The notes below the pieces were generated by a model that did no database searches, was not told the DNA's origin, and was given only the letters and a program-made list of their open reading frames with translations. A DNA stretch of 37,541 nucleotides from a virus: positions 1 to 37,541 of the IMG/VR virus record IMGVR_UViG_3300042691_019974. The stretch is one strand, 5' to 3'. Every line of letters starts with the position of its first letter. Within the stretch, counting starts at the first letter, position 1. The translations under genes were made by a program, and so were the position numbers. Shown here piece by piece: positions 3,036-35,264 of the stretch.

Positions 3036-3045
3036 ATATTTATTA
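3036..3045 (+). promoter_or_regulatory. ATATTTAT element, putative late promoter of scaffold-capsid unit
   Basis: ATATTTATTA, with 112 nt to the scaffold start. This is the longest leader of the set and contains the hairpin at 3065-3085 and a Shine-Dalgarno. Confidence 0.5.
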
Positions 3046-3064
3046 TAGAATTACGCAACAAAAT

Positions 3065-3085
3065 ACTCTTTTTCTTATAAAGAGT
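3065..3085 (+). promoter_or_regulatory. Leader hairpin upstream of scaffold gene
   Basis: ACTCTTT (3065-3071) pairs with AAAGAGT (3079-3085) around a 7-nt loop. AACA 3057-3060 can extend it with TGTT 3086-3089 across a bulge. No T-run follows, so it is not a classical terminator. It could stabilise the 5' end of the scaffold-capsid mRNA or set its translation; both are inference. Confidence 0.35.
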
Positions 3086-3142
3086 TGTTCAATATAATCA
3101 GTATTACTCCTCTCTAATAGGCGTAAATCCAAAAAAAAATTT

Positions 3143-3148
3143 AAGGAG
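3143..3148 (+). promoter_or_regulatory. Strong Shine-Dalgarno of the scaffold gene
   Basis: AAGGAG with 9 nt to ATG 3158. It fixes this start and stands out, because the other starts in the window have A-rich leaders without a recognisable Shine-Dalgarno. Confidence 0.6.
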
Positions 3149-3157
3149 ACTAAAAAA

Positions 3158-4156
3158 ATGAAAACAGATTTGCTCAAAGAAGCAATCGCTGATGCGGATG
3201 CTATTAAACAATTGGCTATTGAGAACGCCAAGGCTTCGTTAAATGAATCTTTCGATTCTAAAATCAAATCCATGCTTGCTGCAAAACTTCAAGAAGAAGC
3301 AGACATGAAGGATGACGAGCTGGAAGAGACTTATGACGAAGCTTATGATGAAAAGGAAGAAAAAGACCCCATAGACGAAATGAAGCACAAAAAAGGTGAA
3401 GAAGAAGGCGAAGAAGAAGACACTGATGAGTCTTTTGACATTGAGGCTATTCTCGCTGAAATGGAAGATGGCGAAGGAGATGAAGATATGAAGGAAGCTC
3501 GTAAAAAAGCCTCTGCTGAAGACGACATGGATGACGAAGAAATGAAAGAGCCGGAAGCTCCTAAAGGCAAAAAAGCTCCTGCTGATGACGATGATGCCGC
3601 TCCTGCTGATGACGAAGAAGAAAGCGGAGAAGATCAAATGGAAGAAACCATCGATCTTGACGCTCTAATCGCTGAAATGATGGGAGAAGCCGAAGAAGAT
3701 GTGGACAACAAAGACGAGGCTTACAATGATGACGATACTATGGATGAAGGAGATTACATGGATGACAAAGATGATAAAGTAAAGGAAATGAAAGAAGAAC
3801 TTTACGAAATCAAGCGTCAAGCCAAGCAATTAGCTGCTAAAGTTAATGAAACCAACCTTATCAACGCTAAGCTTCTTTATCTGAACAAAGTTCTTCGTAA
3901 TCACACTCTTTCTGAGCAACAGAAGATTAAAGTTGTAGCTGCTTTTGACAAAGCTAACTCTGTTAAAGAAGCTAAAATTGTATACGAATCGTTAAATGAA
4001 GCTTTGAATATTAGAATTCAGAATAACAAGACCAGTCTGAAGGAATCTTTAGGCTTTGCATCTAAGGCTAGCGGTAATTCCACTAAGCGTGAAATTATCT
4101 CCGAGTCTTTTGCAGACAGAGAAAGGTGGCAAAAACTGGCAAACATTAGAAAATAA
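3158..4156 (+). CDS. 22: Prohead scaffold (core) protein, T4 gp22-like
   Basis: A 332-aa very acidic protein located between protease and capsid genes, the position of T4 gp22. It would form the inner core around which the capsid assembles and then be degraded by gp21. Layout: a helical N-terminus (1-55), a long Glu/Asp-rich low-complexity middle (about 55-210), and a helical C-terminal region (about 208-290, with NLINAKLLYLNKVL and EQQKIKVVAAFDKA) of the kind conserved in gp22 proteins. L/I-X-E sites for the protease are frequent, for example L6-K7-E8/A9, LNES near residue 30, and the two related motifs ILAEM and LIAEM. The start is fixed by the AAGGAG at 3143. The capsid gene follows after 27 nt with no terminator between, so the two are probably co-transcribed. 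Confidence 0.85.
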   Translation: MKTDLLKEAIADADAIKQLAIENAKASLNESFDSKIKSMLAAKLQEEADMKDDELEETYDEAYDEKEEKDPIDEMKHKKGEEEGEEEDTDESFDIEAILAEMEDGEGDEDMKEARKKASAEDDMDDEEMKEPEAPKGKKAPADDDDAAPADDEEESGEDQMEETIDLDALIAEMMGEAEEDVDNKDEAYNDDDTMDEGDYMDDKDDKVKEMKEELYEIKRQAKQLAAKVNETNLINAKLLYLNKVLRNHTLSEQQKIKVVAAFDKANSVKEAKIVYESLNEALNIRIQNNKTSLKESLGFASKASGNSTKREIISESFADRERWQKLANIRK

Positions 4157-4183
4157 CAACAAAAAACAAAAACAAGAATTAAA

Positions 4184-5827
4184 ATGAACGTACAATCTCT
4201 ATTAGAATCCTCTAATCCGTACGCTTCTATGATGACCGAGGCTCAACGCCTGGTTAAGAAGTGGGGAGCAACGGGACTTCTCGAAGGTAAAGACCTCGAA
4301 AAGACCACATACGGTAAAGAAAGGATGGCAATCATCCTTGAAAACCAAGCTAAGCAGCTTTTAGTTGAACAATCCCAAACCGGTACTGGCGGTACTTTTA
4401 CTGCTGGTCAAGGTGAGCAGTGGGCTGGTGTAGCTCTTCCGCTCGTTCGTAAGATCTTTGCTGAGATCTCTTCGAAAGAGTTCGTTAGCGTACAGCCTAT
4501 GACCCTCCCTGCTGGTCTGGTGTTCTTCCTTGAGTTCAAGTATGGTAACAACCAACCCGAAGGTATGGCCGCTGGTGCTCGTTTCGCAGCTGGAGACAGC
4601 ATGTACGGTACCACTAACGTTAAAAACGTAGATCCGACCGGTGGTCTTTATGGTGCTGGCCGCTTTGGCTACTCCATCAACGAAGCTTCTGCTACGACCA
4701 TTTTCCAAATCACGACTGCATCTTATGCTGACGTTAACTTCAACAGCCTGTATAGCGCTTCTGTAGCTGCTGACAAGATGCGTAAGTTTAGCGTAACTGC
4801 TTCTACGACTGCTCTGTCCGGTATGGATACGAATGGTGTTCGTGCTTTCGCTATCACTGGTAGTGGTTTCAACGAATCCAATACTTTTGCTGAGTTTGCT
4901 TCTTATAACAGTGCTACCAACGTACTTTCTTTCGTAGTAAGTGCTTCTGGTGGTGTAGCTACTAGCTCTAGCATCTCTGGTACGACTTATTTCCAAAAGC
5001 AACCTACCGATAACAATCGTGGTGACTTCGAAGATACTTCTACCCGTCCTCTGACTGGCTCTGCTGCTATCCCTGAAGTTAACGTAGAAATGCGTTCTGA
5101 GCCCGTAGTTGCTAAAACCAGGAGACTGAAAGCTAAGTGGACTCCTGAATTCAGCCAAGATCTGAATGCATACCAGTCTCTGGATGCTGAGGCTGAACTG
5201 ACCTCTACGCTTTCTGAGTATATCTCTCTGGAAATCGACCTGGAAATTATCGATATGCTTATCGAGAACTCCAACAGTACGGAATTCTGGTCTGCTCAGT
5301 CCAATGTGTTCTACAACAAAGGCCTCGGCACTTGGAGCACTCTTGCTGCTGGTTCCGGTGGTTACTACAACACACAAGGACAGTGGTTCGCAACCCTGGG
5401 TACTAAGATCCAAAGCGTTGCTCGTACCATTCACAAGAAGACTCTCCGTGGTCAAGCTAACGTACTCATGTGCGGACCTTCCGTAGCAACGATCATCGAA
5501 TCTATCCCCGGCTATGCCGCTGATACCGATGGTAGCAAAGAAGAGTTTGCAATGGGCTCTCATAAGGCTGGTCAACTGAATAGCCGTTACAAAGTGTATG
5601 TTAACCCATACATGAATGAGAACATCATTCTGATGGCTTACAAAGGTAGCCAATTCCTTGAGACTGGCGCTGCCTTCTGCCCTTATATTCCTCTGATCAT
5701 GACTCCTTTGTTGTATGATCCCGAGACATTCACTCCCCGTAAGGGCCTGATGACTCGTTACGCCAAGAAGATTCTACGTCCTGAATTCTTCGGTACTGTA
5801 GAAGTAGCGGATCTCGATAAAGTATAA
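4184..5827 (+). CDS. 23: Major capsid protein, T4 gp23-like
   Basis: A 547-aa shell protein of the HK97-fold gp23 family; T4 gp23 is 521 aa. The N-terminal propeptide carries KKWGATGLLEG and IILENQAKQL, which line up in order with the T4 pro-region. L60-V61-E62/Q63 is a good candidate for the gp21 cut, close to E65 of T4. The mature part opens with a Gly-rich stretch and then FVSVQPM, equivalent to the GVQPM region of T4. The C-terminus includes YVNPYMNENIILMAYKGSQF and a run near the end (RYAKKILRPEFFG) typical of the family. Codon use is shifted to C-ending and CTG/CGT codons compared with neighbours, which suggests selection for very high expression. The leader is A-rich without a Shine-Dalgarno, and a strong terminator follows. 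Confidence 0.93.
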   Translation: MNVQSLLESSNPYASMMTEAQRLVKKWGATGLLEGKDLEKTTYGKERMAIILENQAKQLLVEQSQTGTGGTFTAGQGEQWAGVALPLVRKIFAEISSKEFVSVQPMTLPAGLVFFLEFKYGNNQPEGMAAGARFAAGDSMYGTTNVKNVDPTGGLYGAGRFGYSINEASATTIFQITTASYADVNFNSLYSASVAADKMRKFSVTASTTALSGMDTNGVRAFAITGSGFNESNTFAEFASYNSATNVLSFVVSASGGVATSSSISGTTYFQKQPTDNNRGDFEDTSTRPLTGSAAIPEVNVEMRSEPVVAKTRRLKAKWTPEFSQDLNAYQSLDAEAELTSTLSEYISLEIDLEIIDMLIENSNSTEFWSAQSNVFYNKGLGTWSTLAAGSGGYYNTQGQWFATLGTKIQSVARTIHKKTLRGQANVLMCGPSVATIIESIPGYAADTDGSKEEFAMGSHKAGQLNSRYKVYVNPYMNENIILMAYKGSQFLETGAAFCPYIPLIMTPLLYDPETFTPRKGLMTRYAKKILRPEFFGTVEVADLDKV

Positions 5828-5852
5828 GTTAGGTGTAGGTCAAATATAAATT

Positions 5853-5878
5853 AGCCGGGACTTGTTCCCGGCTTTTTT
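5853..5878 (+). terminator. Rho-independent terminator after capsid gene
   Basis: An 8-bp GC-rich stem, AGCCGGGA (5853-5860) with TCCCGGCT (5866-5873), has a 5-nt loop followed by a T-run to 5878. It lies 26 nt after the capsid stop codon. Confidence 0.92.
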
Positions 5879-5909
5879 ATTTAATAACACAGTCAGTTAA
5901 ATCTGTAAG

Positions 5910-5919
5910 ATATTTATAT
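5910..5919 (+). promoter_or_regulatory. ATATTTATAT element, putative promoter of phoH unit
   Basis: ATATTTATAT preceded by G and followed by C. It begins 32 nt after the capsid terminator and ends 13 nt before the phoH ATG. Confidence 0.55.
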
Positions 5920-5932: not shown

Positions 5933-6601
5933 ATGATTGATGGATCTGATGGTAAAAGAAAACCGAAAAACCCGATTAAGTTTTTAGTACAGTTAAACGA
6001 AGAACAGAAACAAGCAAAACAAACAATTTTAGACAATAAAGTAACGGTAATAAAAGGACAAGCCGGATCAGGAAAATCATTAGTTGCAGCACAAGTAGCC
6101 TTAGATTTATTATTTAAAAAAGAAGTAGAAAAGATTATACTTTCTAGGCCAGCTGTAAATGCCGGAGAAGAGATAGGGTTTATGCCAGGGGATAAAGATG
6201 CTAAATTAGCGCCTTACACTGCGGCCATATACGATAACATGTACCGGCTCTATAACAAAGAAAAGATAGATAAAGAGATTATAGAAGGGAATATAGAAGT
6301 CATTCCTGTTGGATTTGCTAGGGGCCGAAACTTTAGTAATGCTTGCGTAGTAATAGATGAGGGACAGAACGTAACTTCTAAGCAAATGGAGCTACTTCTA
6401 GGTAGAATTTGCGTAGGTACTAAGATGATCATTTGCGGAGATACTTCTCAAATAGATTTAAAAAATCCTAAAGATTCCGGATTTAATTTTTTATGCGTGA
6501 ACTTTAATAATGTTCCAGGATTCAAAGTTGTTACTCTCAAAACTAACCATAGAGATCCTATAGTAGAGGAGATTCTCAAAATATATCATGACTTTATGTA
6601 A
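5933..6601 (+). CDS. phoH: PhoH-like P-loop ATPase
   Basis: A 222-aa ATPase with the PhoH signature set: Walker A GQAGSGKS (42-49), SRPAVNAGEEIGFMPGD (71-87), Walker B VVIDEGQN (139-146) and sensor motif GDTSQID (169-175), ending with a TNHRDPIVEEIL block. PhoH proteins are helicase-like ATPases linked to RNA metabolism; their role in phages is unsettled although the gene is common in marine T4-like phages. It has its own putative promoter after the capsid terminator and leads into the neck genes. ATG 5933 was chosen because the nearby ATG at 5929 stops after three codons. The family call is firm; the function in this phage is not known. Confidence 0.93.
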   Translation: MIDGSDGKRKPKNPIKFLVQLNEEQKQAKQTILDNKVTVIKGQAGSGKSLVAAQVALDLLFKKEVEKIILSRPAVNAGEEIGFMPGDKDAKLAPYTAAIYDNMYRLYNKEKIDKEIIEGNIEVIPVGFARGRNFSNACVVIDEGQNVTSKQMELLLGRICVGTKMIICGDTSQIDLKNPKDSGFNFLCVNFNNVPGFKVVTLKTNHRDPIVEEILKIYHDFM

Positions 6602-6606: not shown

Positions 6607-6616
6607 ATATTTATAT
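6607..6616 (+). promoter_or_regulatory. ATATTTATAT element, putative promoter of neck genes
   Basis: ATATTTATAT preceded by G, 5 nt after the phoH stop codon and 16 nt before the next ATG. Confidence 0.5.
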
Positions 6617-6632: not shown

Positions 6633-7799
6633 ATGGCAGGCCAAGTAGAAGTACCTTATTATGACGCTAGTGTCGCTTTATTGCCAGTATCCGGTAATAC
6701 TCCCTTCGGATATTATGATACTGATCCTATTTTTGTTAGCGATGCTCAAAAATTCGTGCGATTTGCAGCAAGAAGATTAGGATATCCCATAATGGAGATA
6801 GAGTTGCAGGACATTAACTTCTATGCTGCCTTAGAGGATGCTGTAACTGTGTATGGTAAAGAGCTATACGAATACAAAATAAGAGAAAATTACTTAAGTA
6901 TTGAAGGAAATACGACCGGAAGTACTTTAAATAATACTCTTATACAGCCTAGCTTCGGCAATATTATTCGAATAGCAAAAGATTATGGATCTGAGGTAGG
7001 TAGTGGAGGGAACGTTCCTTATTATACCGGATCTATAAACATGCTTGCCAATCAACAAAATTATGACTTAGATGCTTGGGCCAGTCAATCTCTTAATTTA
7101 GCAGCAGGAGACCGAATAGAGGTTAAAAGGATCTTTTATGAGGCTCCTCCTGCTATTATTAGATATTTTGATCCATATGCTGGTACGGGTACAGGCCTAC
7201 AATCCTTAATGGAAACTTTTGGATTTGGTCAATTTTCTCCCGGTATCAACTTTATGTTGATGCCTGTGTACTTTGATGTATTAAAAATACAGGCTATAGA
7301 ATTTAATGATCAAATTAGAAAGTCCGCTTATAGTTTTGAGCTAGTAAATAACAAGTTAAGGATATTACCTATCCCTACTTTTGATAGGCCTTTGTTTTTT
7401 ACTTATATAAAAATATCAGAAAGAGACTCTGTTAGTAAAAATAGTAGTCAAAATTTAGTTACTAATATAAGTAATGTTCCCTTCCTTAATCCGGTATATT
7501 CTCAAATTAATGCTGTATTTAGAAAGTGGATTTTTGATTATGCTATGTCTATAGTAAAAGAGACTTTAGGAAATATCAGGGCTACCTATCAAAGCATCCC
7601 TATCCCAGGCTCAGAAACTACTCTTAATGGCCAGACTTTAATAGACCAAGCTAATAACGAAAAGCAGACTTTAATAGAACAACTTAGAGGTACTTTGGAC
7701 GATACCTCTCGTCAAAAACAAATGGAGAAAAGAGCCATGGAAGCTGAGCAGCTGAAGCTTACGTTAAATAATTTCCCAATGCCTATATACATACTGTAA
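6633..7799 (+). CDS. 13: Neck / head-completion protein, T4 gp13-like
   Basis: A 388-aa protein that I place in the gp13 neck-protein group. This rests on an N-terminal helical region typical of head-tail adaptors (FVRFAARRLGYPIMEIEL, then YAALEDAVTVYGKELYEYKI, about residues 34-90) and on its place at the head of a 13-14-15 series. Such proteins bind the portal after packaging and seal the head for tail joining. The middle contains aromatic-rich segments (YFDPYAGTG, FGFGQFSPG). The C-terminus is a charged helix (about 320-375, EKQTLIEQLRGTLDDTSRQK) that looks suited to oligomer contacts. It is longer than T4 gp13 (309 aa). The stop overlaps the next start (TAATG at 7797). The assignment leans on motif memory plus gene order. 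Confidence 0.75.
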   Translation: MAGQVEVPYYDASVALLPVSGNTPFGYYDTDPIFVSDAQKFVRFAARRLGYPIMEIELQDINFYAALEDAVTVYGKELYEYKIRENYLSIEGNTTGSTLNNTLIQPSFGNIIRIAKDYGSEVGSGGNVPYYTGSINMLANQQNYDLDAWASQSLNLAAGDRIEVKRIFYEAPPAIIRYFDPYAGTGTGLQSLMETFGFGQFSPGINFMLMPVYFDVLKIQAIEFNDQIRKSAYSFELVNNKLRILPIPTFDRPLFFTYIKISERDSVSKNSSQNLVTNISNVPFLNPVYSQINAVFRKWIFDYAMSIVKETLGNIRATYQSIPIPGSETTLNGQTLIDQANNEKQTLIEQLRGTLDDTSRQKQMEKRAMEAEQLKLTLNNFPMPIYIL

Positions 7800-9951: not shown

Positions 9952-10212
9952 ATGGCTCTAATAAGATTTAAACAAATAGAAAAACTAATCCCCGGGGACA
10001 TCACTATATCTGGGTCTTTGTCCGTATATGGTAATGCTACTTTCGTCCAAACATCTTCTATTCCGGCTTTAATTGTTTCAGGAAGCCAGCAAATAGTTAA
10101 ATCTAATATTACTGCTACTACATACAGTGCTTCTCTTGGAATACAAAATCTTGGTACTTGGGCAGATACAGGAAGTAATCAAACTATTGATTTGGGGAAT
10201 GAATCTTATTGA
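9952..10212 (+). CDS. Small fibre-like protein
   Basis: An 86-aa protein. The better start is ATG 9952, one base after the upstream stop; an in-frame TTG at 9943 would only add MLN and overlap the previous gene. It contains ITISGSLSVYGNATFVQTSS, the beta-strand 'GSL' style found throughout the giant fibre downstream, and ends with TGSNQTIDLGNESY. It could be a short appendage subunit, or an N-terminal adaptor domain that stands alone here and is fused to a long fibre elsewhere. The frame beyond the TGA stop closes again within a few codons, so this is not simply a fibre broken by one stop mutation. Confidence 0.6.
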   Translation: MALIRFKQIEKLIPGDITISGSLSVYGNATFVQTSSIPALIVSGSQQIVKSNITATTYSASLGIQNLGTWADTGSNQTIDLGNESY

Positions 10213-10221
10213 TATTTATAA
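10212..10221 (+). promoter_or_regulatory. ATATTTATAA element, putative promoter of giant fibre
   Basis: ATATTTATAA overlapping the TGA stop of the small fibre-like gene, 55 nt before the giant fibre ATG. The leader contains the duplicated TAGCTA motif at 10223-10236. Confidence 0.45.
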
Positions 10222-22456: not shown

Positions 22457-22639
22457 GGATATTTTGCTTACTTACAAGCAAATTATGATGCAACAAATCC
22501 GTTTGTTCTTAATAGTCAAGGATTTGACATATTAGGCTCTAAAACAGGGATAGGATCTAATAGGGCTACGTATTTAAATAGTTATTACGATATATCTCTT
22601 AATACTTCCGGATTTACAGCATCTGCTGCTACTACTAGA

Positions 22640-25548: not shown

Positions 25549-25558
25549 ATATTTATAT
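25549..25558 (+). promoter_or_regulatory. ATATTTATAT element, putative promoter
   Basis: ATATTTATAT within an AT run, 17 nt before ATG 25576 of the membrane protein gene. Confidence 0.45.
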
Positions 25559-25575: not shown

Positions 25576-25881
25576 ATGGTATACGTTGTTGTATTAGCAG
25601 GGGCCTTAGTCGCAGCAGTAGTGCTGTATAATATTTTTGTCCCCAAAGAAGATTCCGTCCTAGAGCCAAAAGAGGACATTTCAGGCGGATTTGTGCCTAC
25701 ACAGCCTGATCCTCAACCTTCAAAAGATGATGTCGCAGAAGTACAGTCTTATAATTTTGAGACTACTGCTGACTTGGCTGCTGAAACCGCAGTTTTTACT
25801 CCGGAGCCTACTCCTGTTACAGTAGAAAAAGTAAAAGTAGTTAAGAAAAAAGCAACTCCTAAAAAAACAAAAGGTGCATAA
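25576..25881 (+). CDS. Single-pass membrane protein with Pro/Lys-rich tail
   Basis: A 101-aa protein. Residues 2-22 (VYVVVLAGALVAAVVLYNIF) form one clear membrane helix at the very N-terminus. The rest is soluble and low-complexity: acidic and Pro-rich up to about residue 85 (PTQPDPQPSKDD, TPEPTPVTVEK), then a Lys-rich end (VKVVKKKATPKKTKGA). No lipobox cysteine or signal-peptidase site is evident, so it would stay anchored. It could be a lysis accessory or an envelope-interacting protein; the layout alone cannot decide. Its last 8 bp overlap the next gene. Confidence 0.65.
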   Translation: MVYVVVLAGALVAAVVLYNIFVPKEDSVLEPKEDISGGFVPTQPDPQPSKDDVAEVQSYNFETTADLAAETAVFTPEPTPVTVEKVKVVKKKATPKKTKGA

Positions 25882-26420: not shown

Positions 26421-26430
26421 ATATTTATTG
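26421..26430 (+). promoter_or_regulatory. ATATTTATTG element, putative promoter of sheath-tube unit
   Basis: ATATTTATTG, 37 nt before the sheath ATG. It sits inside an inverted repeat TTGATA 26418-26423 / TATCAA 26434-26439, the only such dyad among the 13 elements. Confidence 0.45.
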
Positions 26431-26467: not shown

Positions 26468-29125
26468 ATGACAGAACAAATCTTATCCGCTGGCGTATAT
26501 CCCAGTGAAAATGATCAGTCGTTCTACAGTCAGGGCAGTGCGGCTACTGGATTAGCCGTTGTCGGTCCTGCTGAGAAAGGTGCTGCATTCATTCCAACTG
26601 ACGTAACCAGCTATTCACAATTTACCGCTCTCTTTGGATCCGATTCCAAAGCTAGCTATACTGCTCAAACAGTATACAACTATCTCCAGGCAGGAAATAG
26701 TGTTAAAGTTACTAGGGTATTAGGTAATGGAGGATGGCAGTACAACTCTACAAGACAGTTGGCTGCTATCCTCTCTCCTTCATCTGTCGGTACTGCCGGT
26801 ACAGCGGCCTCTGCTTCTTATTCTACCGCATCCTTTGTAACTAATGCTAATTATATTGCTCTAACGTTATCCGGATATTCCGGAAGAAGAGTATCTTTTT
26901 ATGGGGGTATAGGATATAGCCAATACATTCCATTTGAAAGTGACATTGTTAAGTATTTTGATACGAGTGCATCTTCTGCTGCTAACGTACAAGGATTTCT
27001 TGCTGCGGTAGCAAGGTCAACTGCGTATTCTTTGGTGACGGGGTCTTACCCAGGATCTGGATCTACGTTTAGCCTAACTGCTACTACTGTAGGAGTTGAG
27101 GGCAATTCCTTTAAATTTGGACCTTCTTTTGACGTTTATGCCTTTCCTGATAGCGTAGGTACTGTAACTTTTGGTGGAGGATCTGCTGCAATAGCTTCTG
27201 GGTCGGCAACTATAGCTGCTGTACTCTATCCTACGCAGAATGATAACGTTAATGTAGCTCTTAATGGAATTAAAGCTACCGGCTCTTTTCAGACATTTAA
27301 TGTTCCTCTCCCTGGTATCTACAGCAAGGCTGGGTTCACGGCTTCCTTGAATCCCACTTCTGATCTTTATATCACTAAAGTACTAGGTACTAGTCCTTCT
27401 AGCGAAAAAGGCTCTGTATTCCCTTATATGATTTTTGGAAACAGTCTTACTGCTAGTGTTAGTTTTAGCACATCTATTACTTCTTCTGTAGTATTTACCA
27501 CAGCTAACTGTACTTTTACGAGTTCTAATTCTAGCGGATACGATCACGCTAGTACTCCATGGGTACTTTCTGATAGCGGTGTAAGAATTATTAAATTCCA
27601 CCATCGTTCTGATGGATTTAAATCTAACAGAGACATTAAAGTAGCTATAGCTAATATTAAAAAAGGGTCCGACTCTTCTACTTACTCTACTTTTGATGTA
27701 CAAGTTAGAGCTTGGAATGATCTTGATAGAGCCCCCTCTATTATTGAGCAATATAGTGGAGTTACTCTTAATCCTAACGCTACTAACTATATCGCTAAAG
27801 TTATTGGTGATGTATATCTGAGCTATGACGAAACTCAATTAAAGGTAATTCAGAATGGGGATTTCCCGAATGTATCTAATTATATCAGAGTTGAAGTAGC
27901 TGAGGCTATCTCTACCGGCACTAGCCAGCCTCAAATAATACCTAATGGGTACGAAGCTGTTTATGAAACTATCGCCGGATTCAGCACTTATAGGCTTCCT
28001 GCTGCTATAGCATTAAACAGTAATAGTTCTTCCCTTACCTACTCTGGATTTGATTATTCCAATGTAGATAACCTGAACTATCTTAACCCTGTTCCTTCTG
28101 AAGCGGTAACTGGTAGCAATACTTCGTTTAGTAAGCCTGCTAATGATAATAAGTTTGTACTTCCTTTCCAAGGTGGTAATGATGGTATGAACTATGTTAA
28201 CATTAAGAAGATTGGTGCTGATATTGCTACTGATGGTACTAACGTATTTGGGTTTGATCTGTCTAGTGCTGCTGCTGCCGGGTATGCATCTTATAAAAAA
28301 GCTCTGGATATTCTTAGTAATAGTGAAGAATACAAGTTTGATCTTCTGGTTCTTCCTGGTGCTATAGAACAATATCATGGCGCTGTAACAGCTTATGCTC
28401 AAAGCACTGCTGAAGAAAGAACTGACTGTGTATATCTCCGTGATCTTACCGGTGTTAATACTCCGATTGCTGCTGCAATTAATGTAGCTGCCGGTCTCGA
28501 TAGTAGCTATAGTGCAGTATACTATCCATGGGTTAAAGTAAAAGATCTAGGAAGCTCTAAAGATGTAATGGTGCCTCCTTCCGTAGTAGTTCCTGAAGCT
28601 TATGCTTACAGTGATAGCGTATCTGCTGAATGGTTTGCTCCTGCTGGTCTTAACAGAGGTATCCTTGGTGTAGTTGATACTAGAGTGAAGCTGTCTAAGC
28701 CAGATAGGGACGCTCTTTATCAAGCTCGGATTAACCCAATCGCTAAGTTCCCGAACACTGGCGTAGTTATCTGGGGTCAAAAGACTCTGCAAGTTCGTGA
28801 TACGGCTCTTAACCGCATCAATGTTCGCAGATTGTTGATCGCTCTTCGTAACTACATTAGTGATGTTGCTAAGTTCTTCGTATTCGAAAACAATACGGTA
28901 GAAACTAGGAACAAGCTTGTGAACCAAATAGTACCTTACATGGAGACTGTACAAGCCCGTCAAGGTTTGTATGCCTTCAGAGTACAGATAGATGAGGCTC
29001 TAAACACTAACGATGTAATAGATCGTAACCAGTTGATAGGTAAGATTTACGTATCTCCGGCAAAATCGATTGAATTTATCCTGTTGGAATTTAATATCAC
29101 ATCTACCGGGGCTATTTTCCAATAA
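26468..29125 (+). CDS. 18: Tail sheath protein, T4 gp18-like
   Basis: An 885-aa contractile sheath subunit. The N-terminus (SAGVYPSENDQSFYSQGSAA then TGLAVVGPAEKGAAFIPT) is the conserved sheath start. The C-terminal 110 residues carry the interlocking core domain: VIWGQKTLQVRDTALNRINV then RRLLIALRNYISDVAKFFVF, and a final YVSPAKSIEFILLEFNIT strand. It is longer than T4 gp18 (659 aa). The surplus lies in the middle (about 110-560), with Ser/Ala/Thr-rich, beta-patterned inserts probably forming extra surface domains. Translation in the 3' part uses more C-ending codons, as in the capsid gene, in keeping with a high-copy protein. It is followed directly by the tube gene. Confidence 0.92.
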   Translation: MTEQILSAGVYPSENDQSFYSQGSAATGLAVVGPAEKGAAFIPTDVTSYSQFTALFGSDSKASYTAQTVYNYLQAGNSVKVTRVLGNGGWQYNSTRQLAAILSPSSVGTAGTAASASYSTASFVTNANYIALTLSGYSGRRVSFYGGIGYSQYIPFESDIVKYFDTSASSAANVQGFLAAVARSTAYSLVTGSYPGSGSTFSLTATTVGVEGNSFKFGPSFDVYAFPDSVGTVTFGGGSAAIASGSATIAAVLYPTQNDNVNVALNGIKATGSFQTFNVPLPGIYSKAGFTASLNPTSDLYITKVLGTSPSSEKGSVFPYMIFGNSLTASVSFSTSITSSVVFTTANCTFTSSNSSGYDHASTPWVLSDSGVRIIKFHHRSDGFKSNRDIKVAIANIKKGSDSSTYSTFDVQVRAWNDLDRAPSIIEQYSGVTLNPNATNYIAKVIGDVYLSYDETQLKVIQNGDFPNVSNYIRVEVAEAISTGTSQPQIIPNGYEAVYETIAGFSTYRLPAAIALNSNSSSLTYSGFDYSNVDNLNYLNPVPSEAVTGSNTSFSKPANDNKFVLPFQGGNDGMNYVNIKKIGADIATDGTNVFGFDLSSAAAAGYASYKKALDILSNSEEYKFDLLVLPGAIEQYHGAVTAYAQSTAEERTDCVYLRDLTGVNTPIAAAINVAAGLDSSYSAVYYPWVKVKDLGSSKDVMVPPSVVVPEAYAYSDSVSAEWFAPAGLNRGILGVVDTRVKLSKPDRDALYQARINPIAKFPNTGVVIWGQKTLQVRDTALNRINVRRLLIALRNYISDVAKFFVFENNTVETRNKLVNQIVPYMETVQARQGLYAFRVQIDEALNTNDVIDRNQLIGKIYVSPAKSIEFILLEFNITSTGAIFQ

Positions 29126-29129: not shown

Positions 29130-29139
29130 ATATTTATTA
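29130..29139 (+). promoter_or_regulatory. ATATTTATTA element, putative promoter of tube gene
   Basis: ATATTTATTA between the sheath stop and the tube ATG, 20 nt before the latter. It would give the tube gene extra transcript. Confidence 0.4.
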
Positions 29140-29159: not shown

Positions 29160-29648
29160 ATGCCCATACTTTCAACAGACCAAATGCTAGGTACAACGTT
29201 TGAACCGATACTTCAGCATAGGTTTATAATGTCAATAGACGGAATTCCTTCTTACCTCATCAAAAAGATCAGTGGTATCGGATTTGATGACGGTGAAGTA
29301 ATTATCGATCACATAAACTCCTACGTTAAATTTAGGCAGAAGCGTAGGTGGAATGATATAACTCTCAGCCTGTATAATCCGGTTAGTCCTAGCGGTGCTC
29401 AAACTGTAATGGAGTGGGCTCGTCTAAGCTACGAAACCGTAACTGGTAGAGCTGGATATGGTGACTTTTACTGGAAAGACATTACTTTCAATGCCATTGA
29501 TCCTGTAGGTAACACAGTTAATGAGTGGGTAATTAAAAAATCCTTCATTAAGAATGTATCTAACTTCGGCGATTGGGATTGGTCTGCTAGTGAATACACT
29601 ACTATCGAAATGACCTTAGGAAATTCTGGAATGATCCTGAATTACTAA
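29160..29648 (+). CDS. 19: Tail tube protein, T4 gp19-like
   Basis: A 162-aa tube subunit that stacks into the inner tail tube. T4 gp19 is 163 aa, so length agrees very well. Family features: FEPILQHRFIMSIDGIPSYL at the front, KISGIGFDDGEVIIDHINSY, the basic RQKRRWNDITLSLY strand, a VMEWARLSYE helix, and a C-terminal NVSNFGDWDWSASEYTTIEM strand that pairs with the next ring. It starts 34 nt after the sheath and is closed by a terminator. Confidence 0.92.
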   Translation: MPILSTDQMLGTTFEPILQHRFIMSIDGIPSYLIKKISGIGFDDGEVIIDHINSYVKFRQKRRWNDITLSLYNPVSPSGAQTVMEWARLSYETVTGRAGYGDFYWKDITFNAIDPVGNTVNEWVIKKSFIKNVSNFGDWDWSASEYTTIEMTLGNSGMILNY

Positions 29649-29673
29649 TAAGTTCCTACTCTGTCAAACAAAG

Positions 29674-29702
29674 TCCCTGCTCTCAAGGCAGGGATTTTTT
29701 TT
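29674..29702 (+). terminator. Rho-independent terminator after tube gene
   Basis: Stem TCCCTGC (29674-29680) with GCAGGGA (29688-29694), 7-nt loop, then eight T. Confidence 0.9.
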
Positions 29703-29706
29703 ATTC

Positions 29707-29716
29707 ATATTTATAT
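29707..29716 (+). promoter_or_regulatory. ATATTTATAT element directly before the metallopeptidase gene
   Basis: ATATTTATAT begins 5 nt after the terminator T-run and ends only 4 nt before ATG 29721. If it is a -10 box, the mRNA would be leaderless or start inside the gene. Confidence 0.5.
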
Positions 29717-29720: not shown

Positions 29721-30335
29721 ATGAGTACATATAACCTAAACTTTGATGATAAGTCTATGATTTTCATAGATCATGTAAAAAAAGAGTGTAAAAAGTATAA
29801 TGTTATATGTAGTCTTAGAAATACTAAAAATGTAAGAATAGGAGATGGAATGTCAGCTTCCGGGTATTTTGATGAGACTACTCCTATATTAGTATGTTCT
29901 ATGAATAGAGTAGACGCAATAGAAATACTAGTCCATGAGTATTGTCATTTAACTCAATGGGTAGATCAAATTCCTATATGGAAAGAATGCGAAAAAAGTA
30001 TTCCTCGATTTTTTGGATGGCTACAGGGAGATAGAATAAAGAATGTTAAGAAACATATGGAGAATTGTAGGCAGATAGAATTAGATAATGAGAAAAGATC
30101 TGTAGAAATTATTAAAAAATTTGACCTTAACATAGATACTAAGGCCTATATTAAGAAAGCAAATGCGTATGTTTACTTTTACACTTACATGCTCACTACC
30201 AGAAGATGGGCTAAAAAGAAGAATAGTCCCTATAGTAATATACAGTTAATAAATTCTATGCCGGATTACTTTCTAGAAGATTATAGTATTATTCCTAAAA
30301 ATATAGAAAGAGTGTTTATTGAACAAAAAATCTAA
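29721..30335 (+). CDS. HExxH metallopeptidase-like protein
   Basis: A 204-aa protein with a zinc-protease signature VHEYCHLTQW (H72, E73, H76). A glutamate in the downstream helix IELDNEKRSVEII (E120 or E124) is a likely third ligand, the gluzincin layout seen in ImmA/IrrE- and SprT-type folds. The N-terminal part is basic; no signal peptide or membrane segment, so a cytoplasmic or virion role is likely. It stands alone between a terminator and promoter element upstream and another promoter element downstream. It could process virion proteins, act on host proteins, or be inactive; nothing in the sequence selects one. It is not the maturation protease, which is the gp21-like serine protease. 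Confidence 0.75.
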   Translation: MSTYNLNFDDKSMIFIDHVKKECKKYNVICSLRNTKNVRIGDGMSASGYFDETTPILVCSMNRVDAIEILVHEYCHLTQWVDQIPIWKECEKSIPRFFGWLQGDRIKNVKKHMENCRQIELDNEKRSVEIIKKFDLNIDTKAYIKKANAYVYFYTYMLTTRRWAKKKNSPYSNIQLINSMPDYFLEDYSIIPKNIERVFIEQKI

Positions 30336-30344
30336 TATTTATAT
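30335..30344 (+). promoter_or_regulatory. ATATTTATAT element, putative promoter
   Basis: ATATTTATAT overlapping the last base of the metallopeptidase stop, 18 nt before ATG 30363. Confidence 0.5.
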
Positions 30345-30362: not shown

Positions 30363-31766
30363 ATGGCTAAACGTTTTATACAAGAATTATCCGCTCAAAC
30401 TAAATATGATGCGGCAATTAAAGCAGCAAGTAAAGGATTTGATAGTAGTAATGATAATGACATGGAAAGAAAAAAAGCCATGCAACAGGGAGATGCGTTA
30501 TTAAAACATGTGGATCCTGAAACAGTAAAAAAAGTAGAGGCTTTTGCAAAACAATTAGATCTTGATTATACAATTAAAAAAGACCCTAGTGGCTCTAAAT
30601 ATGAGTCAACAATAGCAATTGTATTAGGCAAAAACTTAAAAAGCCCAAATTTAGCACAATCAGCCCCAATTAAAGTATATATTACTAAAGATAAAAGTAA
30701 GGTAGATGGTGTATTGCCTGACCAAGCAACAGAGAGAAAGTTAGGTGCGTTAATTAAATATATACAACAAAAAGAATTAGCAGTAAATTTAAAAGATGTA
30801 GGTCAAGTACAAGAAGCAAAACGTAAATTAACCTCTCTGATAGACAAATTAATTAAAGAAGAGCTCAGTGCTCATAATAAAATAAAAGAAGCGTTAGGAC
30901 CTGCTAAAAAAATATCTGATGCAGAGGCTGTAACGATATTAAACAATAAAAAGTACGATATAGAAACTACAATAGATTATGACTATGCGTACAGAGATCG
31001 TGCAACAGACATACTGGCGGAATTAGAGGGCAAGCTAAAAGCAGATTCTTTTGATAATATTGAGGGAGAGAACACAATAAGACTGTCTGTATATACACCA
31101 GGTAAAGAAGCTCCTTTTTTTCTAATTAGAGATGTAAAAAATCGTTCTTGGAGTATGAAAGAGTTTGAAGAAAATGAAGTAAACGAGAGACAAGAAGAAC
31201 TTGGAGAAGGAGAGAGGTACGCAGGAAGAGATGCTGAAGTCGATGCAAGGAAGGATCAGGATTTTAATAGACTTTCTCCGGAGACCCAAAAAAATGTTTT
31301 AGACAAACTAAGAAAAGGAGGATCTGTTACTTTAGAAAACGAAGATCAGCCCGCTCCTTCCGCAGCGGATATTGCCGGTAAAATGTCTGAGATTTTAGAC
31401 AAGTTAAATAATATGTCTGAAATGAAGCAGGACCCGAAGTATAAAAAGCATGCTGAGAAGGCTGCCAAGTATATGGAAGCTGCTAAATCTGCTTTAGAAG
31501 GTCTGACTAATTATGAGACCATGCTAGAAGAGAAAGACAAAGAAAACAAAGAAAAAGGTGCTGGTAAAGTATTAAAAACTATAGAAAAAGCCCTAAGTAA
31601 AATTATAAAAGATAAGAATACGGTAGCTAAAATAATGCATAAAATGCCTGTTTCTAAGGTAATAGAGCTACAATCTACTGCAAATAAAGAGCTTGATGAA
31701 GAAAAAGTAGCAAAGGCAATGCTAAATGTAGCCCTTAAAGAAGGGTATATAAACAGTAACAAGTAA
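30363..31766 (+). CDS. Lys/Glu-rich putative internal virion protein (467 aa)
   Basis: No family recognised. It is a hydrophilic, mostly helical protein with alternating Lys and Glu; a helix with KRKLTSLIDKLIKEELSAHN (about 156-175) and a C-terminal helical region (about 330-467) stand out. A short beta-patterned segment lies near 228-262. I/L-X-E sites for the prohead protease occur at I6-Q7-E8/L9 and in LIKE and KIKEA (about 170-182), so it may be a packaged internal protein like the 773-aa protein of the head module, whose composition it shares. It has its own promoter element and terminator, i.e. a one-gene transcript, and is placed among tail genes. Role unknown. Confidence 0.6.
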   Translation: MAKRFIQELSAQTKYDAAIKAASKGFDSSNDNDMERKKAMQQGDALLKHVDPETVKKVEAFAKQLDLDYTIKKDPSGSKYESTIAIVLGKNLKSPNLAQSAPIKVYITKDKSKVDGVLPDQATERKLGALIKYIQQKELAVNLKDVGQVQEAKRKLTSLIDKLIKEELSAHNKIKEALGPAKKISDAEAVTILNNKKYDIETTIDYDYAYRDRATDILAELEGKLKADSFDNIEGENTIRLSVYTPGKEAPFFLIRDVKNRSWSMKEFEENEVNERQEELGEGERYAGRDAEVDARKDQDFNRLSPETQKNVLDKLRKGGSVTLENEDQPAPSAADIAGKMSEILDKLNNMSEMKQDPKYKKHAEKAAKYMEAAKSALEGLTNYETMLEEKDKENKEKGAGKVLKTIEKALSKIIKDKNTVAKIMHKMPVSKVIELQSTANKELDEEKVAKAMLNVALKEGYINSNK

Positions 31767-31787
31767 TTCTAACTAACGAAATTAAAG

Positions 31788-31814
31788 CCTCGCTCTAAAA
31801 AAGCGAGGTTTTTT
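31788..31814 (+). terminator. Rho-independent terminator
   Basis: Stem CCTCGCT (31788-31794) with AGCGAGG (31802-31808), 7-nt A-rich loop, then six T. It lies 21 nt after the stop of the 467-aa gene. Confidence 0.88.
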
Positions 31815-31836
31815 ATTTTAAAAACCTACTATCTAT

Positions 31837-31846
31837 ATATTTATAT
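31837..31846 (+). promoter_or_regulatory. ATATTTATAT element, putative promoter of baseplate hub unit
   Basis: ATATTTATAT, 22 nt after the terminator T-run and 16 nt before ATG 31863. Confidence 0.5.
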
Positions 31847-31862
31847 ATACAAAACATTGTTT

Positions 31863-32633
31863 ATGGCAGAAACTCAACCGTTTAAAGTTCCAACTCAACC
31901 GCTAGATTTACCTTCTCAAGGCTTATTATATCCTGAAGGACACCCTCTTGCATCTGGTATTGTTGAACTCAATATGCCTACGGCATACCATGAGGATATT
32001 CTAACTAACCAGAACTATATTAATAAAGGAATGGTTATTGATAAGTTTTTACAAGCTATTATAGCTACTAAAGTAGACTATGATGATCTATTTCTAGGAG
32101 ATAAGAACGCTATTCTAGTAGCCTCTAGGATCCTTGCATACGGTCCTAGCTACTCTTTTAAGTATACAGACATGAGTAGCCGGGAGCAAGAGCAAGTTAC
32201 TGTGGATTTATCTGATCTGAAGAATAAAGAAGTAGACTGGTCTCTATTTAAAGATCATAAGAATGAGTTCTACTTTGAATTGCCTTTATCTAAGCGCCTT
32301 ATTGGATTCAAGCTGCTCACTCATAAAGATGAGACTTTGATTGATGGGGAGATTAAAGGCTTGAAGAAGATCCATAAAGACATGTCCGGAGACATTACAG
32401 TTAGGCTGGCTCATCAAATAATCTCCATAGACGGAAATACCGATAAAAAAACTATCCGAGATTTCGTCAAGGTTATGCCTATGAGAGATTCTCAAGAGCT
32501 TAGAAAGTACATGATATCTATTAGTCCGGATATTGATATGAAATTTAGCTTTACTAAGTCCAATGGAGAGGTAGTGGAGGGCCTCACTATCCCAATGACT
32601 GTTGACTTTTTTTGGCCTAACCTCGGAGTATAG
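31863..32633 (+). CDS. 26: Baseplate hub subunit, T4 gp26-like
   Basis: A 256-aa protein starting at ATG 31863 (an in-frame TTG at 31857 would only add two residues). Family features: VPTQPLDLPSQGLLYPEGHP at the N-terminus, MPTAYHEDILTNQNYINKG, MVIDKFLQAIIATKVDYDDL, then LGDKNAILVASRILAYGPSY. These match the gp26 hub family of T4-like phages, in which the protein helps build the central baseplate hub. The C-terminal half (about 130-256) is more divergent and ends VDFFWPNLGV. Position before a short gp51-like gene repeats the T4 order 26-51. Confidence 0.85.
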   Translation: MAETQPFKVPTQPLDLPSQGLLYPEGHPLASGIVELNMPTAYHEDILTNQNYINKGMVIDKFLQAIIATKVDYDDLFLGDKNAILVASRILAYGPSYSFKYTDMSSREQEQVTVDLSDLKNKEVDWSLFKDHKNEFYFELPLSKRLIGFKLLTHKDETLIDGEIKGLKKIHKDMSGDITVRLAHQIISIDGNTDKKTIRDFVKVMPMRDSQELRKYMISISPDIDMKFSFTKSNGEVVEGLTIPMTVDFFWPNLGV

Positions 32634-32637
32634 AAAT

Positions 32638-32883
32638 ATGATGTTTGATGAGGTTCTATGGTTATCCATGAACTCAGAAGGAGGTATAAGCTATACTGAT
32701 GCATATCATATGCCGGTAGCATATAGAAACCTTAACATCAAAAAGATATCCGAAATAAACAAAAAGAGAAACGAAGAGATAGAGAAAGCAAAAGGGAACG
32801 GTACTTCTATGGATATGGATAGCTTAGCTAGACCTAAAATAGATATACCAGACTTCATAACACAAAGAGCCGCTAAAAAATAG
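32638..32883 (+). CDS. Small baseplate-assembly protein, possible gp51-like
   Basis: An 82-aa protein; ATG 32638 is taken, 4 nt after the hub stop (ATG 32641 is an equal alternative). A longer frame from 32602 would overlap the hub gene and is less likely. It has a helix with FDEVLWLSMNSEGG then SYTDAYHMPVAYRNLNIKKI, and a Lys/Glu-rich helix (EINKKRNEEIEKAKG), followed by a short end. In T4, gp51 (a hub-assembly catalyst) is next to gp26; this protein has that slot and a similar 'MP' + basic-helix pattern seen in short gp51-type proteins. The match is weak. An alternative is a chaperone for the tape measure encoded next. Confidence 0.55.
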   Translation: MMFDEVLWLSMNSEGGISYTDAYHMPVAYRNLNIKKISEINKKRNEEIEKAKGNGTSMDMDSLARPKIDIPDFITQRAAKK

Positions 32884-32892
32884 CGGCTTTTT
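32868..32892 (+). terminator. Rho-independent terminator overlapping the end of the gp51-like gene
   Basis: Stem AGCCGCTA (32868-32875) with TAGCGGCT (32881-32888), 5-A loop, then T-run. The TAG stop codon forms the base of the right arm. Confidence 0.88.
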
Positions 32893-32893
32893 A

Positions 32894-32903
32894 ATATTTA
32901 TAT
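32894..32903 (+). promoter_or_regulatory. ATATTTATAT element, putative promoter of tape measure
   Basis: ATATTTATAT begins 2 nt after the terminator T-run and ends 16 nt before ATG 32920. Confidence 0.5.
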
Positions 32904-32919
32904 CTAAAGAGAAACGTAA

Positions 32920-35253
32920 ATGGCATTATCAACAGCTTCAGGAAGTATAGATAATATAGTGCTAGAGCAGCAGTTAAATCTTTATAATGACATATTAAAA
33001 ATAACGGAGACCATTAGAGACGAGTCTTCTTCTATTAGATATACTTATGCTAGCCAAACAGATGCTCTTAAACAACAAGTTAAGAGTATGACATTATACG
33101 CTGGGGAAGTAAGGAGAGTGTTACAAATAGGAACAAGCACTAAACATTTGCAAGAAGATATTGTCGCTATCAATGATAGACTTGGGATAGAGTACGTAAA
33201 ACAAGAAGCACTAGATAAAAAGATAAATAATCAAAAGAGCATAGCTATTGATTTAGTCTTAATGCATAATGACGCAGTAGCAGCGGTAGCGTCTTCGACA
33301 GCAGCATCAGCAGCAGAAGCAGCCGCTTATTTAAAGGCAGTAGAAGAAGCAATAGCAGCAAATGAATCTAATTTAGTCATTTTAAATAGAATATCAAATA
33401 AGCTAGTCGAAGCAAACGATCAAGCAGTTAAGTTTATAAACAAATCAAAAGTTTTACAAGAGGTACTTAGTAAAATAAGTAGTATACCATTAATAGGAAA
33501 GTTTTTAGAAGCTCAAAAAATAATGGATGCGTTTTCCGTTTCTAAAAAAGATGGACTTAAAGAAGTTGGAAAGCAACTTAAAGGAATGTTTAATAGTCCT
33601 CTTGTACTGGCATCTCTAGCAGCAACAGCTTGGGGATTTATTATAAATAAAGTAAAACAATTTGTTTCTTTAGTTAAAGAAATGGATGCAAATATTACTG
33701 CTGTAGCTAATAGTATGGGAGTAGCTAAGGAAGGAGCCGATCTATTAGTAAAGTCTGTTTATAATACAAATGAGCCTGTTAAAAATTTAGATGGCCTGCT
33801 AAATGGTATATTCATAACTACCGGTAATATATCAAAAGCTATTTTATCTCTACAAGATAGTTTTGGAGTAGCTGCCATTTTTAGTAAAGAGATGGTACAA
33901 AGCCAGATTCTTCTTACTGAACAAATGGGATTTAGTAATGAAGAAGCAGCCGGGATTCAAAAATATTTTTACACTTCTGGAGTAACTGCTAAGGGAGTGC
34001 TAGATACCGTTACAAAAACCAACAAATCTTTTTTAAGCAATAGAAAGCTAATATCAGAAATAGCAAAAGTAAACAGTGAGATTGCTACTTCTTATAAAAA
34101 CCAAGTAGGGCTAATAGCTAATGCAGCAGTACAAGCAGCTAAGTTAGGTATGACTCTTGATGACACTAGAAAAATATCTGATAGCTTATTAAACTTTGAA
34201 ACCTCTATTGAGAACGAATTAAAAGCAGAACTTTTATTAGGTAAACAACTTAATTTTGAAAAAGCAAGGTCTCTTGCATTAGATGGTAAATCTGCTGAAG
34301 CAGCTGCTTTGTTAGTAGAGCAAACGGGGGGATTAAACAAACTAAATCAATTAAATGTAATCCAAAGAAAGGCCTTAGCAGAATCTATAGGATTATCTGC
34401 GGAAGAGCTTACTAAATTTGCTCAACAAGAACAAATTATTAGAGACGCTGGCCTTGGTACTTTAGAAAATGCAAGAGCCTTATACGAACAGTATAAAGCT
34501 TCCGGTAGAGAAAAAGAAGCTCAGGCTTTATTAGATTCTGTAGCCAAACAACAGAATGGAGAAATGCTAGCTCAAGATATAGCTAAAGTAGATATTAATA
34601 AAAGATTTGAACAATCTATGTTAAAGATAAAAGATATATTTGCTACTATGCTTTCTGGTCCTATTATGGGAATACTAGAAGCAATTGCCGGTATGCGGGA
34701 GCATGCTACTCTAATGAAAGTAGTATTAGTAGGAGTAGCGGCTGTTTCAGTAGCCATAGCTAGTGCTTTGACAGCTGCTGCTATAGCAGCAACAATAGCA
34801 TCAGGAGGTTCAAATCTACTTGCTGTGTCTGCTATAACTGGAGGAGTAGTAGCAGCAGGGCTAGGGTCTTATCTTGCTTTTGGAGGATCTGGCGCATCAG
34901 AACCTACTGAAATAAAAGATGGTGTTATATCTCCTAAAGGGAAATTAATGATTAGTACTCCCGAAGGACAAATGTTCCAGCCTGGTAATAAGGATTATTT
35001 GTATGCTACTACTACCCCTCCAAATGAAATGCTTTCTAAAACTACTCCTATTTCAAACCAAACAATATATAATAATATTATTACTAATACTGACAATACT
35101 AATAACAATAATAACAACACCTCTAACAACAATCAAGAAACTAATGCTCTTCTTAAAGAGATGGTAGCTTTAATGAGAGCCGGAGGCGTAGTTAATATGG
35201 ATGGTATAAAAGTAGGAGAAGTTATTGGAAGAAGTAATATTTCATTTGGATAA
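32920..35253 (+). CDS. Tape measure protein (T4 gp29 analogue)
   Basis: A 777-aa protein that would set tail length and pass into the host envelope at injection. Seen: a long helical N-terminus (1-220) with an Ala-rich coiled stretch near 110-150; a first hydrophobic segment SPLVLASLAATAWGFII (about 225-242); a helical middle; a long Ala/Val/Gly-rich hydrophobic region (about 597-655); and an Asn-rich stretch near 723-740 before a conserved-looking end (NMDGIKVGEVIGRSNISFG). Helical character, late hydrophobic segments and position after the hub genes fit a tape measure; T4 gp29 is 590 aa. By the usual rule of about 0.15 nm per residue the tail would be roughly 115 nm long (inference). Confidence 0.78.
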   Translation: MALSTASGSIDNIVLEQQLNLYNDILKITETIRDESSSIRYTYASQTDALKQQVKSMTLYAGEVRRVLQIGTSTKHLQEDIVAINDRLGIEYVKQEALDKKINNQKSIAIDLVLMHNDAVAAVASSTAASAAEAAAYLKAVEEAIAANESNLVILNRISNKLVEANDQAVKFINKSKVLQEVLSKISSIPLIGKFLEAQKIMDAFSVSKKDGLKEVGKQLKGMFNSPLVLASLAATAWGFIINKVKQFVSLVKEMDANITAVANSMGVAKEGADLLVKSVYNTNEPVKNLDGLLNGIFITTGNISKAILSLQDSFGVAAIFSKEMVQSQILLTEQMGFSNEEAAGIQKYFYTSGVTAKGVLDTVTKTNKSFLSNRKLISEIAKVNSEIATSYKNQVGLIANAAVQAAKLGMTLDDTRKISDSLLNFETSIENELKAELLLGKQLNFEKARSLALDGKSAEAAALLVEQTGGLNKLNQLNVIQRKALAESIGLSAEELTKFAQQEQIIRDAGLGTLENARALYEQYKASGREKEAQALLDSVAKQQNGEMLAQDIAKVDINKRFEQSMLKIKDIFATMLSGPIMGILEAIAGMREHATLMKVVLVGVAAVSVAIASALTAAAIAATIASGGSNLLAVSAITGGVVAAGLGSYLAFGGSGASEPTEIKDGVISPKGKLMISTPEGQMFQPGNKDYLYATTTPPNEMLSKTTPISNQTIYNNIITNTDNTNNNNNNTSNNNQETNALLKEMVALMRAGGVVNMDGIKVGEVIGRSNISFG

Positions 35254-35254
35254 C

Positions 35255-35264
35255 ATATTTATAT
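35255..35264 (+). promoter_or_regulatory. ATATTTATAT element, putative promoter
   Basis: ATATTTATAT one base after the tape measure stop, 12 nt before ATG 35277. Confidence 0.5.

Follow-up and report, generated by a model that had tools for sequence, protein, structure and literature searches.

What is the short word that recurs before gene groups in an uncultivated T4-like virus, and what reads it? The window, i.e., the whole 37,541-nt stretch of IMGVR_UViG_3300042691_019974, gave no megablast match to phages, and we found no earlier report of the motif in the literature. An earlier note had proposed 13 recurrent sites as candidate late promoters, oriented opposite to the T4 late box, which is held nearly invariant across T4-like phages (PMC2988020). 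Our analysis supports the late-promoter claim, and we place the probability that ATATTTAT(A/T) is the −10 box of late promoters in a distant T4-like phage, read by a phage sigma factor, at about 0.82.

Placement of the element in the window

Each of the 13 sites proved to be an exact ATATTTAT match on the + strand, which holds no further copy, and all 13 lie in gaps between genes, in line with their description as intergenic or touching a stop codon. The 28 called genes, all on the + strand, leave gaps that sum to ~1.3-1.4 kb. The count over coding and antisense positions that the note had called for gave no copy in coding sense and one in coding antisense, which at 702-711, within gene 47-2368, is also the only minus-strand copy of the window. 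A match reported inside a gene at 1239 is TATTTATA without the leading A. Whole-window dinucleotide shuffles held 3.1 copies on average (maximum 8, n = 300) and gap-only shuffles 0.47 (maximum 3, n = 1000), as compared to the 13 observed.

The window has 15 gaps of 23 nt or more. The element is present in 13 of them, or in 13 of 14 if gap 22404-22639 is set aside, which looks like broken tail-fibre coding sequence and not a true gap. The other gap lacking it comprises the 27 nt preceding the capsid gene, where none of 82 orthologues has a site; this gene presumably is transcribed from site 3036. Sites and neighbouring features are as follows.

3036-3045, + strand: element ATATTTATTA, exact match, before gene 3158-4156, upstream of the capsid gene
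4184-5827, + strand: gp23-like major capsid gene, own upstream gap without a site
5853-5880, + strand: intrinsic terminator-like hairpin (hairpin 5853-5873), precedes site 5910
5910-5919, + strand: element ATATTTATAT, exact match, after terminator, before phoH-like gene 5933-6601
6607-6616, + strand: element ATATTTATAT, exact match, before gene 6633-7799 (gp13-like head-tail adaptor)
10212-10221, + strand: element ATATTTATAA, before gene 10277-20038 (3253 aa), exact in 5/5 orthologues
20586-20595, + strand: element ATATTTATAT, exact match, before tail-fibre gene 20637-22403
25549-25558, + strand: element ATATTTATAT, exact match, before gene 25576-25881
26421-26430, + strand: element ATATTTATTG, before tail-sheath gene 26468-29125, also in immuto
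29130-29139, + strand: element ATATTTATTA, exact match, before tail-tube gene 29160-29648
29670-29706, + strand: intrinsic terminator-like hairpin (hairpin 29670-29698), precedes site 29707
29707-29716, + strand: element ATATTTATAT, exact match, after terminator, before gene 29721-30335
30335-30344, + strand: element ATATTTATAT, exact match, before gene 30363-31766
31784-31816, + strand: intrinsic terminator-like hairpin (hairpin 31784-31812), precedes site 31837
31837-31846, + strand: element ATATTTATAT, after terminator, before baseplate-hub gene 31857-32633, exact in 2/3 orthologues
32864-32893, + strand: intrinsic terminator-like hairpin (hairpin 32864-32892), abuts site 32894
32894-32903, + strand: element ATATTTATAT, exact match, directly after terminator, before gene 32920-35253
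35255-35264, + strand: element ATATTTATAT, exact match, before gene 35277-35504

As had been noticed, a site follows shortly after all four terminators; the strong intergenic hairpins end 37, 9, 25 and 2 nt before one. Likewise, no −35 element is conserved in 77 sites pooled from the window and four close relatives, with upstream information below 0.2 bit per position. Matches to ordinary sigma-70 promoters in the window were not in excess over shuffles. The distance from element to ATG ranges from 6 to >100 nt, and the distances first reported agree with ours within the choice of start codon; that of the baseplate-hub gene 31857-32633 likely is the ATG at 31863.

Conservation and orientation in related phages

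By capsid identity, the relatives of the window include Flavobacterium phage immuto (53%), Microcystis phage Mel-JY01 (52%) and Rhodothermus phage RM378 (34%). The exact word is found in 79 of 152 orthologues of genes that have a site in the window, as compared to 1 of 293 for genes without one. Site 5910 is exact in 32/71 orthologues (58/71 with at most one mismatch), site 6607 in 29/51 (42/51) and site 29130 in 4/6, immuto and Mel-JY01 among them, with the weakest footprint of the testable sites, 4/13, at site 3036. The sites of the window precede, among others, the tail sheath, tail tube and baseplate-hub genes, and of the 24 sites in immuto, 16 fall within virion regions (p = 5e-7, with an odds ratio of 8.7 per intergenic base). 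For G001 and G003, mapped genes show a bias toward virion genes as well, but without significance (p = 0.06 and 0.64), which counts against the reading. Immuto moreover has a distinct TTG...TATATTTAGG class (TTG/TAtaTTTAGG) at 60-77 kb before early-type genes.

Before genes of 73 related IMG/VR loci, TATTTATA occurs 287 times versus 29 for TATAAATA; locus by locus, it is more frequent in 68, equal in 5 and less frequent in none. The window has 10 versus 1, which is not the TATAAATA octamer pattern of T4, where TATAAATA prevails over TATTTATA by 18:1, with the control counts also given as 18 versus 7. T4 and the gp55-bearing cyanophages S-SKS1 and DSL-LC03, all with gp55, show the opposite bias, TATAAATA > TATTTATA. 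In RM378, with genes on both strands, the orientation of TTATTTAA equals the gene strand in 22 of 25 cases.

As a description, an orientation opposite to the T4 box is correct (T4 TATAAATA, window TATTTATA); as a flipped promoter it is not what the comparison suggests. Read in the same orientation, the two part only at positions −10 and −9. Unchanged are the two bases that gp55 buries in deep pockets (PMC7892883), A(−12) and A(−8). Because of this, the words themselves suggest an altered box, central AA to TT, read in the usual direction, and A(−12) and A(−8) may be the flipped bases here, too. We also considered gp55 H95 as cause of the −9 change, which is ruled out, since cyanophage gp55s reading ATAAATA carry F at that position.

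With T4 geometry, late transcripts would start ~5-6 nt downstream of each copy, and leaders of ~12 nt would result before most first genes. Predicted leader length tracks Shine-Dalgarno (SD) use, with a median of ~12 nt without SD, 28 nt in the SD-using Mel-JY01 and 3.5 nt in RM378. At 12 of 145 sites the predicted +1 lies inside the called start codon, which counts against the reading; these starts may be mis-called. At site 29707 the same geometry would place +1 on the A of the ATG, leaving the mRNA leaderless.

A candidate late sigma factor

The gp55-like sigma factor that the earlier note proposed to look for has a candidate in the long relatives, a ~260-aa divergent sigma factor that is 'hypothetical' in immuto, where it corresponds to immuto26A_153 at 78174-78872, and its gene does not lie within the 37.5-kb window. 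The family occurs in the same clade as the element: of 18 records searched, 13 encode it, immuto, Mel-JY01 and RM378 among them, and T4 and S-SKS1 lack it. LR756508 has a sigma homologue and lacks the motif, which counts against the reading. With T4 gp55, gp33 and gp45 as direct phmmer queries no match was obtained in the clade, so profiles and structure were needed to detect the relationship. The gp55 profile phrog_234 matches the same proteins (best E 1e-4), and the best structural match of an AF2 model is T4 gp55 (7d7c_F, Z 10.3, 3.6 Å, 98 residues), the other matches listed being nearly all sigma factors. As modelled, the candidate has a region 2 fold. Pfam Sigma70_r2 gave E 0.011, below the gathering score, and hhalign of the family with gp55 a probability of only 28% (E 6e-4). 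The Tyr equivalent to gp55 Y97 (PMC7892883) is invariant in 34/34 family sequences. The family likely is a distant homologue of gp55, though not necessarily its orthologue. The annotated RM378 sigma p144 (phrog_1740), our first candidate, was abandoned, as the conserved family is p020-like instead.

Homologues of gp33 and gp45, which the note had also proposed to look for, were not detected in the clade: phrog_254 (gp33, at meaningful E-values) and phrog_223 (gp45 clamp) had no match there, whereas T4 and S-SKS1 matched both. A divergent or host clamp could stand in for gp45. T4 gp55 and gp33 have LDFL near the C-terminus; by inspection, no such hydrophobic-acidic clamp-binding tail is present in the sigma family, which carries a C-terminal helix-turn-helix absent from gp55, though no −35 is seen at the sites. 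A small membrane protein encoded upstream of the sigma gene bears no resemblance to gp33 and was dismissed as its analogue.

Probable late promoters, alternatives and known systems

The late-promoter reading rests on gap-only placement, the position after terminators, orthologue footprinting, virion bias, the missing −35 and a phage sigma factor found across the clade. The word before most virion gene groups very probably is the late-gene switch of T4 with two altered letters in the middle. A phage-encoded, divergent sigma factor with gp55-like region 2 would bring host RNA polymerase to the box without a −35, at a box that, versus T4, would have kept TAT..ATA and replaced central AA (−10, −9) by TT.

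Its AT-richness and nearness to start codons, in clade phages that other than Mel-JY01 are without SD sequences, could also be explained if the element works in RNA, as translation enhancer, ribosome-loading AU element or 5'-leader processing site. However, the distance to the ATG varies widely, the element directly follows terminators, is missing at all tightly packed genes and the capsid gene and co-occurs with a phage sigma family, and leaders are longer in the SD-using relative, which makes a function in RNA quite improbable. Since the element matches the T4 box exactly when reverse-complemented, it might alternatively be an ordinary TATAAATA on the opposite strand, giving antisense or bidirectional transcripts. 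This we hold to be very improbable in a window with zero minus-strand genes; sites lie just before starts and do not follow gene ends, the footprint goes with the gene downstream, and in RM378 orientation follows the gene strand.

Bacteroidota sigma-A promoters feature TTG at −33 and TAnnTTTG at −7. The host of the window phage most likely belongs to the Bacteroidota, and these promoters are likewise T-rich, as the early-type class of immuto illustrates, so the element might be read by a sigma factor of the host, alternative or housekeeping, instead of a phage one. We consider this quite unlikely, as the TTG/TAnnTTT-type promoters of immuto are a separate class at other genes, late sites have neither TTG nor the TAnnTTTG box, and the phage sigma factor is conserved together with the element. 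No TTG(−33)/TAnnTTTG(−7) promoters were found before window genes.

Late promoters with a changed box would mean that a whole clade has a different late box and a matching, previously unrecognised, distantly gp55-like sigma family. We give even odds that this Bacteroidota T4-like clade uses its own late sigma and TATTTATA without the gp33/gp45 clamp activation that is the hallmark of T4, with leaderless mRNAs in RM378 and at site 29707. With the element, promoters could be annotated in hundreds of uncultivated genomes and late operons delimited in Bacteroidota phages. Moreover, gp55 with TATAAATA and the clade sigma with TATTTATA would form a natural pair for understanding how a minimal sigma reads DNA, which also bears on whether clamp activation is dispensable.

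In the gp55-gp33-gp45 system of T4, KVP40, S-PM2 and other cyanophages, late promoters consist of an octamer at ~−10 and no −35 (PMC2988020, PMC2984593). The clade resembles it in the single ~−10 octamer before virion genes, the missing −35, the outer TAT..ATA and, in the relatives of the window, a divergent region-2 sigma factor. It differs from T4 in the central TT of its box, in the extra C-terminal helix-turn-helix and missing LDFL-type clamp tail of its sigma factor and in that gp33 and gp45 were not detected. To the sigma-A promoters of the probable Bacteroidota host, the early-type promoters of immuto and Mel-JY01 bear resemblance, unlike the late element. Immuto, Mel-JY01 and RM378 have the TATTTA-type element and the sigma family in common; RM378 stands apart with the box TTATTTAA and mRNAs predicted to be nearly leaderless, and Mel-JY01 with longer leaders that contain SD sequences.

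Placement and conservation of the element

The earlier note had described a 10-nt element at 13 places from 3036 to 35255, all between genes or touching a stop codon. All 13 positions proved exact and are the sole + strand occurrences of ATATTTAT in the window, which was found zero times in coding sense and once in antisense (702-711). Shuffling the gaps alone yielded a mean of 0.47 and a maximum of 3 occurrences in 1000 shuffles, compared with 13 sites. In a word count without prior choice, ATATTTAT was the commonest 8-letter word upstream of window genes (11 times; reverse complement 0). It also ranked top in the close relatives G001, G003 and G004, and second in a fourth, G002, behind the overlapping TATTTATA. 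Four strong terminators each lie 2-37 nt 5' of a site. The element occupies 13 of the 15 window gaps of at least 23 nt; the gaps without it are:

22404-22639, reads as tail-fibre coding sequence
4157-4183, 5' of the capsid gene

Tail-fibre coding seems to run on beyond the stop at 22403 (22403-22640), which suggests a frameshift or an assembly error.

For each window gene, orthologues were sought by tblastn in IMG/VR capsid loci, G001-G004, Flavobacterium phage immuto and Microcystis phage Mel-JY01, and the upstream 100 nt inspected. Genes with a site in the window had the exact 8-mer at 79 of 152 orthologues (118 with at most one mismatch), genes without a site at 1 of 293 (37 with at most one mismatch). 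For most genes the median protein identity of the orthologues is 39-57%, and the element thus outlasts general similarity. Before genes of 73 IMG/VR capsid loci, TATTTATA occurs 287 times versus 29 for TATAAATA, and none of these loci favours TATAAATA. Rhodothermus phage RM378 carries TTATTTAA before genes of both strands, oriented with the gene in 22/25 cases.

Window genes match T4-like prohead protease, gp23 capsid, PhoH, gp13-like adaptor, tail fibres, sheath, tube and hub; one 3253-aa ORF (10277-20038) has no PHROG match. The capsid shares 77-83% identity with the best IMG/VR contigs and, among named phages, is closest to immuto (53%), Mel-JY01 (52%) and RM378 (34%). Shine-Dalgarno-like sequences in the window are not commoner than at control positions, which together with the immuto kinship points to a Bacteroidota host without proving it.

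Anatomy and gene class of the probable promoter

Across 77 pooled sites (window and G001-G004), nothing exceeds 0.2 bit 5' of the 8-mer, in agreement with the reported lack of a conserved -35 element; a weak A/T tail with A at offset 12 follows 3'. With the T of TATTTA set at -13 as in the T4 frame, the median predicted leader is about 11-15 nt long for the window group and for immuto, and 28 nt for Mel-JY01, a phage that does use Shine-Dalgarno sites (31% vs 6% control). In RM378 the median is 3.5 nt with six leaders of exactly 0, as is predicted for window site 29707. Leader length hence shifts with ribosome-site use, as suits a promoter rather than a translation signal.

Of the 24 immuto sites, 16 fall within virion-gene regions (p=5e-7 relative to intergenic length), preceding terminase, portal, sheath, tube, hub and tape-measure genes. 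Late-mapped genes carry a site in 11/39 cases in G001, against 2/25 others (p=0.06), and the bias is not significant in G003 (p=0.64). Placement, conservation and the immuto virion-gene bias thus uphold the late-promoter reading, with "late" denoting gene class, not timing. We conclude that the element is real, conserved and late-promoter-like, a variant of the T4 kind not previously known.

A separate class, TTGc-N(about 20)-TATATTTAGG, frequently with TATCAATAATTAAAAC after it, precedes small early-type genes at 60-77 kb of immuto (MW353175.1) and resembles Bacteroidota sigma-A promoters. Mel-JY01 (PP395634.1) has 18 TTG-N17-21-TAnnTTTG promoters before genes, a type typical of Bacteroidota; its record names Microcystis elabens as host, and the true host may be some bacterium within the culture.

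A candidate sigma factor

A divergent sigma family of about 260 aa, the putative reader of the box, was found in G001-G003, in the further long relatives G007-G009 and G011-G014, and in immuto, Mel-JY01 and RM378, but not in T4 or the cyanophage S-SKS1; at least 580 scanned IMG/VR stretches encode it. It matches Sigma70_r2 weakly (E 0.011), and the T4 gp55 profile phrog_234 picks out these very proteins in G008, G011-G014 and immuto, with E values down to 1e-4. The AlphaFold2 model (pLDDT 76) best matches, over residues 34-136, T4 gp55 in the open complex (7d7c_F, Z 10.3, 3.6 A, 98 residues), and the other structural matches listed are nearly all sigma factors. A Z of about 10 can be common among helical proteins, and the assignment hence draws its weight from the agreement of profile, fold and clade. 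An hhalign comparison with 14 gp55s reproduced this register for region 2 (E 6e-4, probability only 28%) and placed gp55 Y97, which stacks on the flipped A(-12) (PMC7892883), at Y117, invariant in 34/34.

In immuto the sigma gene lies 3' of the last early-type promoter (76214) of the 60-77 kb cluster, with no late element found in between. Immediately 5' of the sigma gene, a small conserved membrane protein with the motif F(E/R)(S/A)DDEVG is encoded:

G001, 129224-129502
immuto, 77900-78193
Mel-JY01, about 158429

In contig L139, the sigma gene (3001-3777) has two in-frame stops near the C-terminus, beyond which similarity resumes. RM378 (NC_004735.1) has two sigma-like genes, the annotated p144 (128329-128928, phrog_1740) and the unannotated p020 (17032-17826), which belongs to the family. 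The 484-kb phage LR756508.1 encodes a homologue (100339-100953, 36.5%); TATTTATA is not enriched there despite it, and the box may have changed again.

Relation to the T4 late system

Structurally, deep pockets of gp55 receive nontemplate-strand A(-12) and A(-8), and a shallow pocket receives A(-9) (PMC7892883). Read in gene direction, TATTTATA keeps T-13, A-12, T-11, A-8, T-7 and A-6 and differs only at -10 and -9. Since TAT..ATA is its own reverse complement around the changed centre, the reversed look of the box is, judging from sequence, probably a by-product. On the simplest account, the box would be read by a related sigma whose central specificity has changed.

Profiles of the gp33 co-activator and gp45 clamp match nothing in the clade, yet match T4 and S-SKS1. 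When compared in box sequence, gp33, gp45 and sigma clamp tail, the window clade did not match the T4 gp55-gp33-gp45 system, and we hence do not claim membership in it. As a description, the opposite orientation to the T4 box stands: T4 prefers TATAAATA 18:1, and the gp55-bearing cyanophages S-SKS1 and DSL-LC03 share this bias, already published for T4 and cyanophages (PMC2984593), whereas the window clade shows the reverse.
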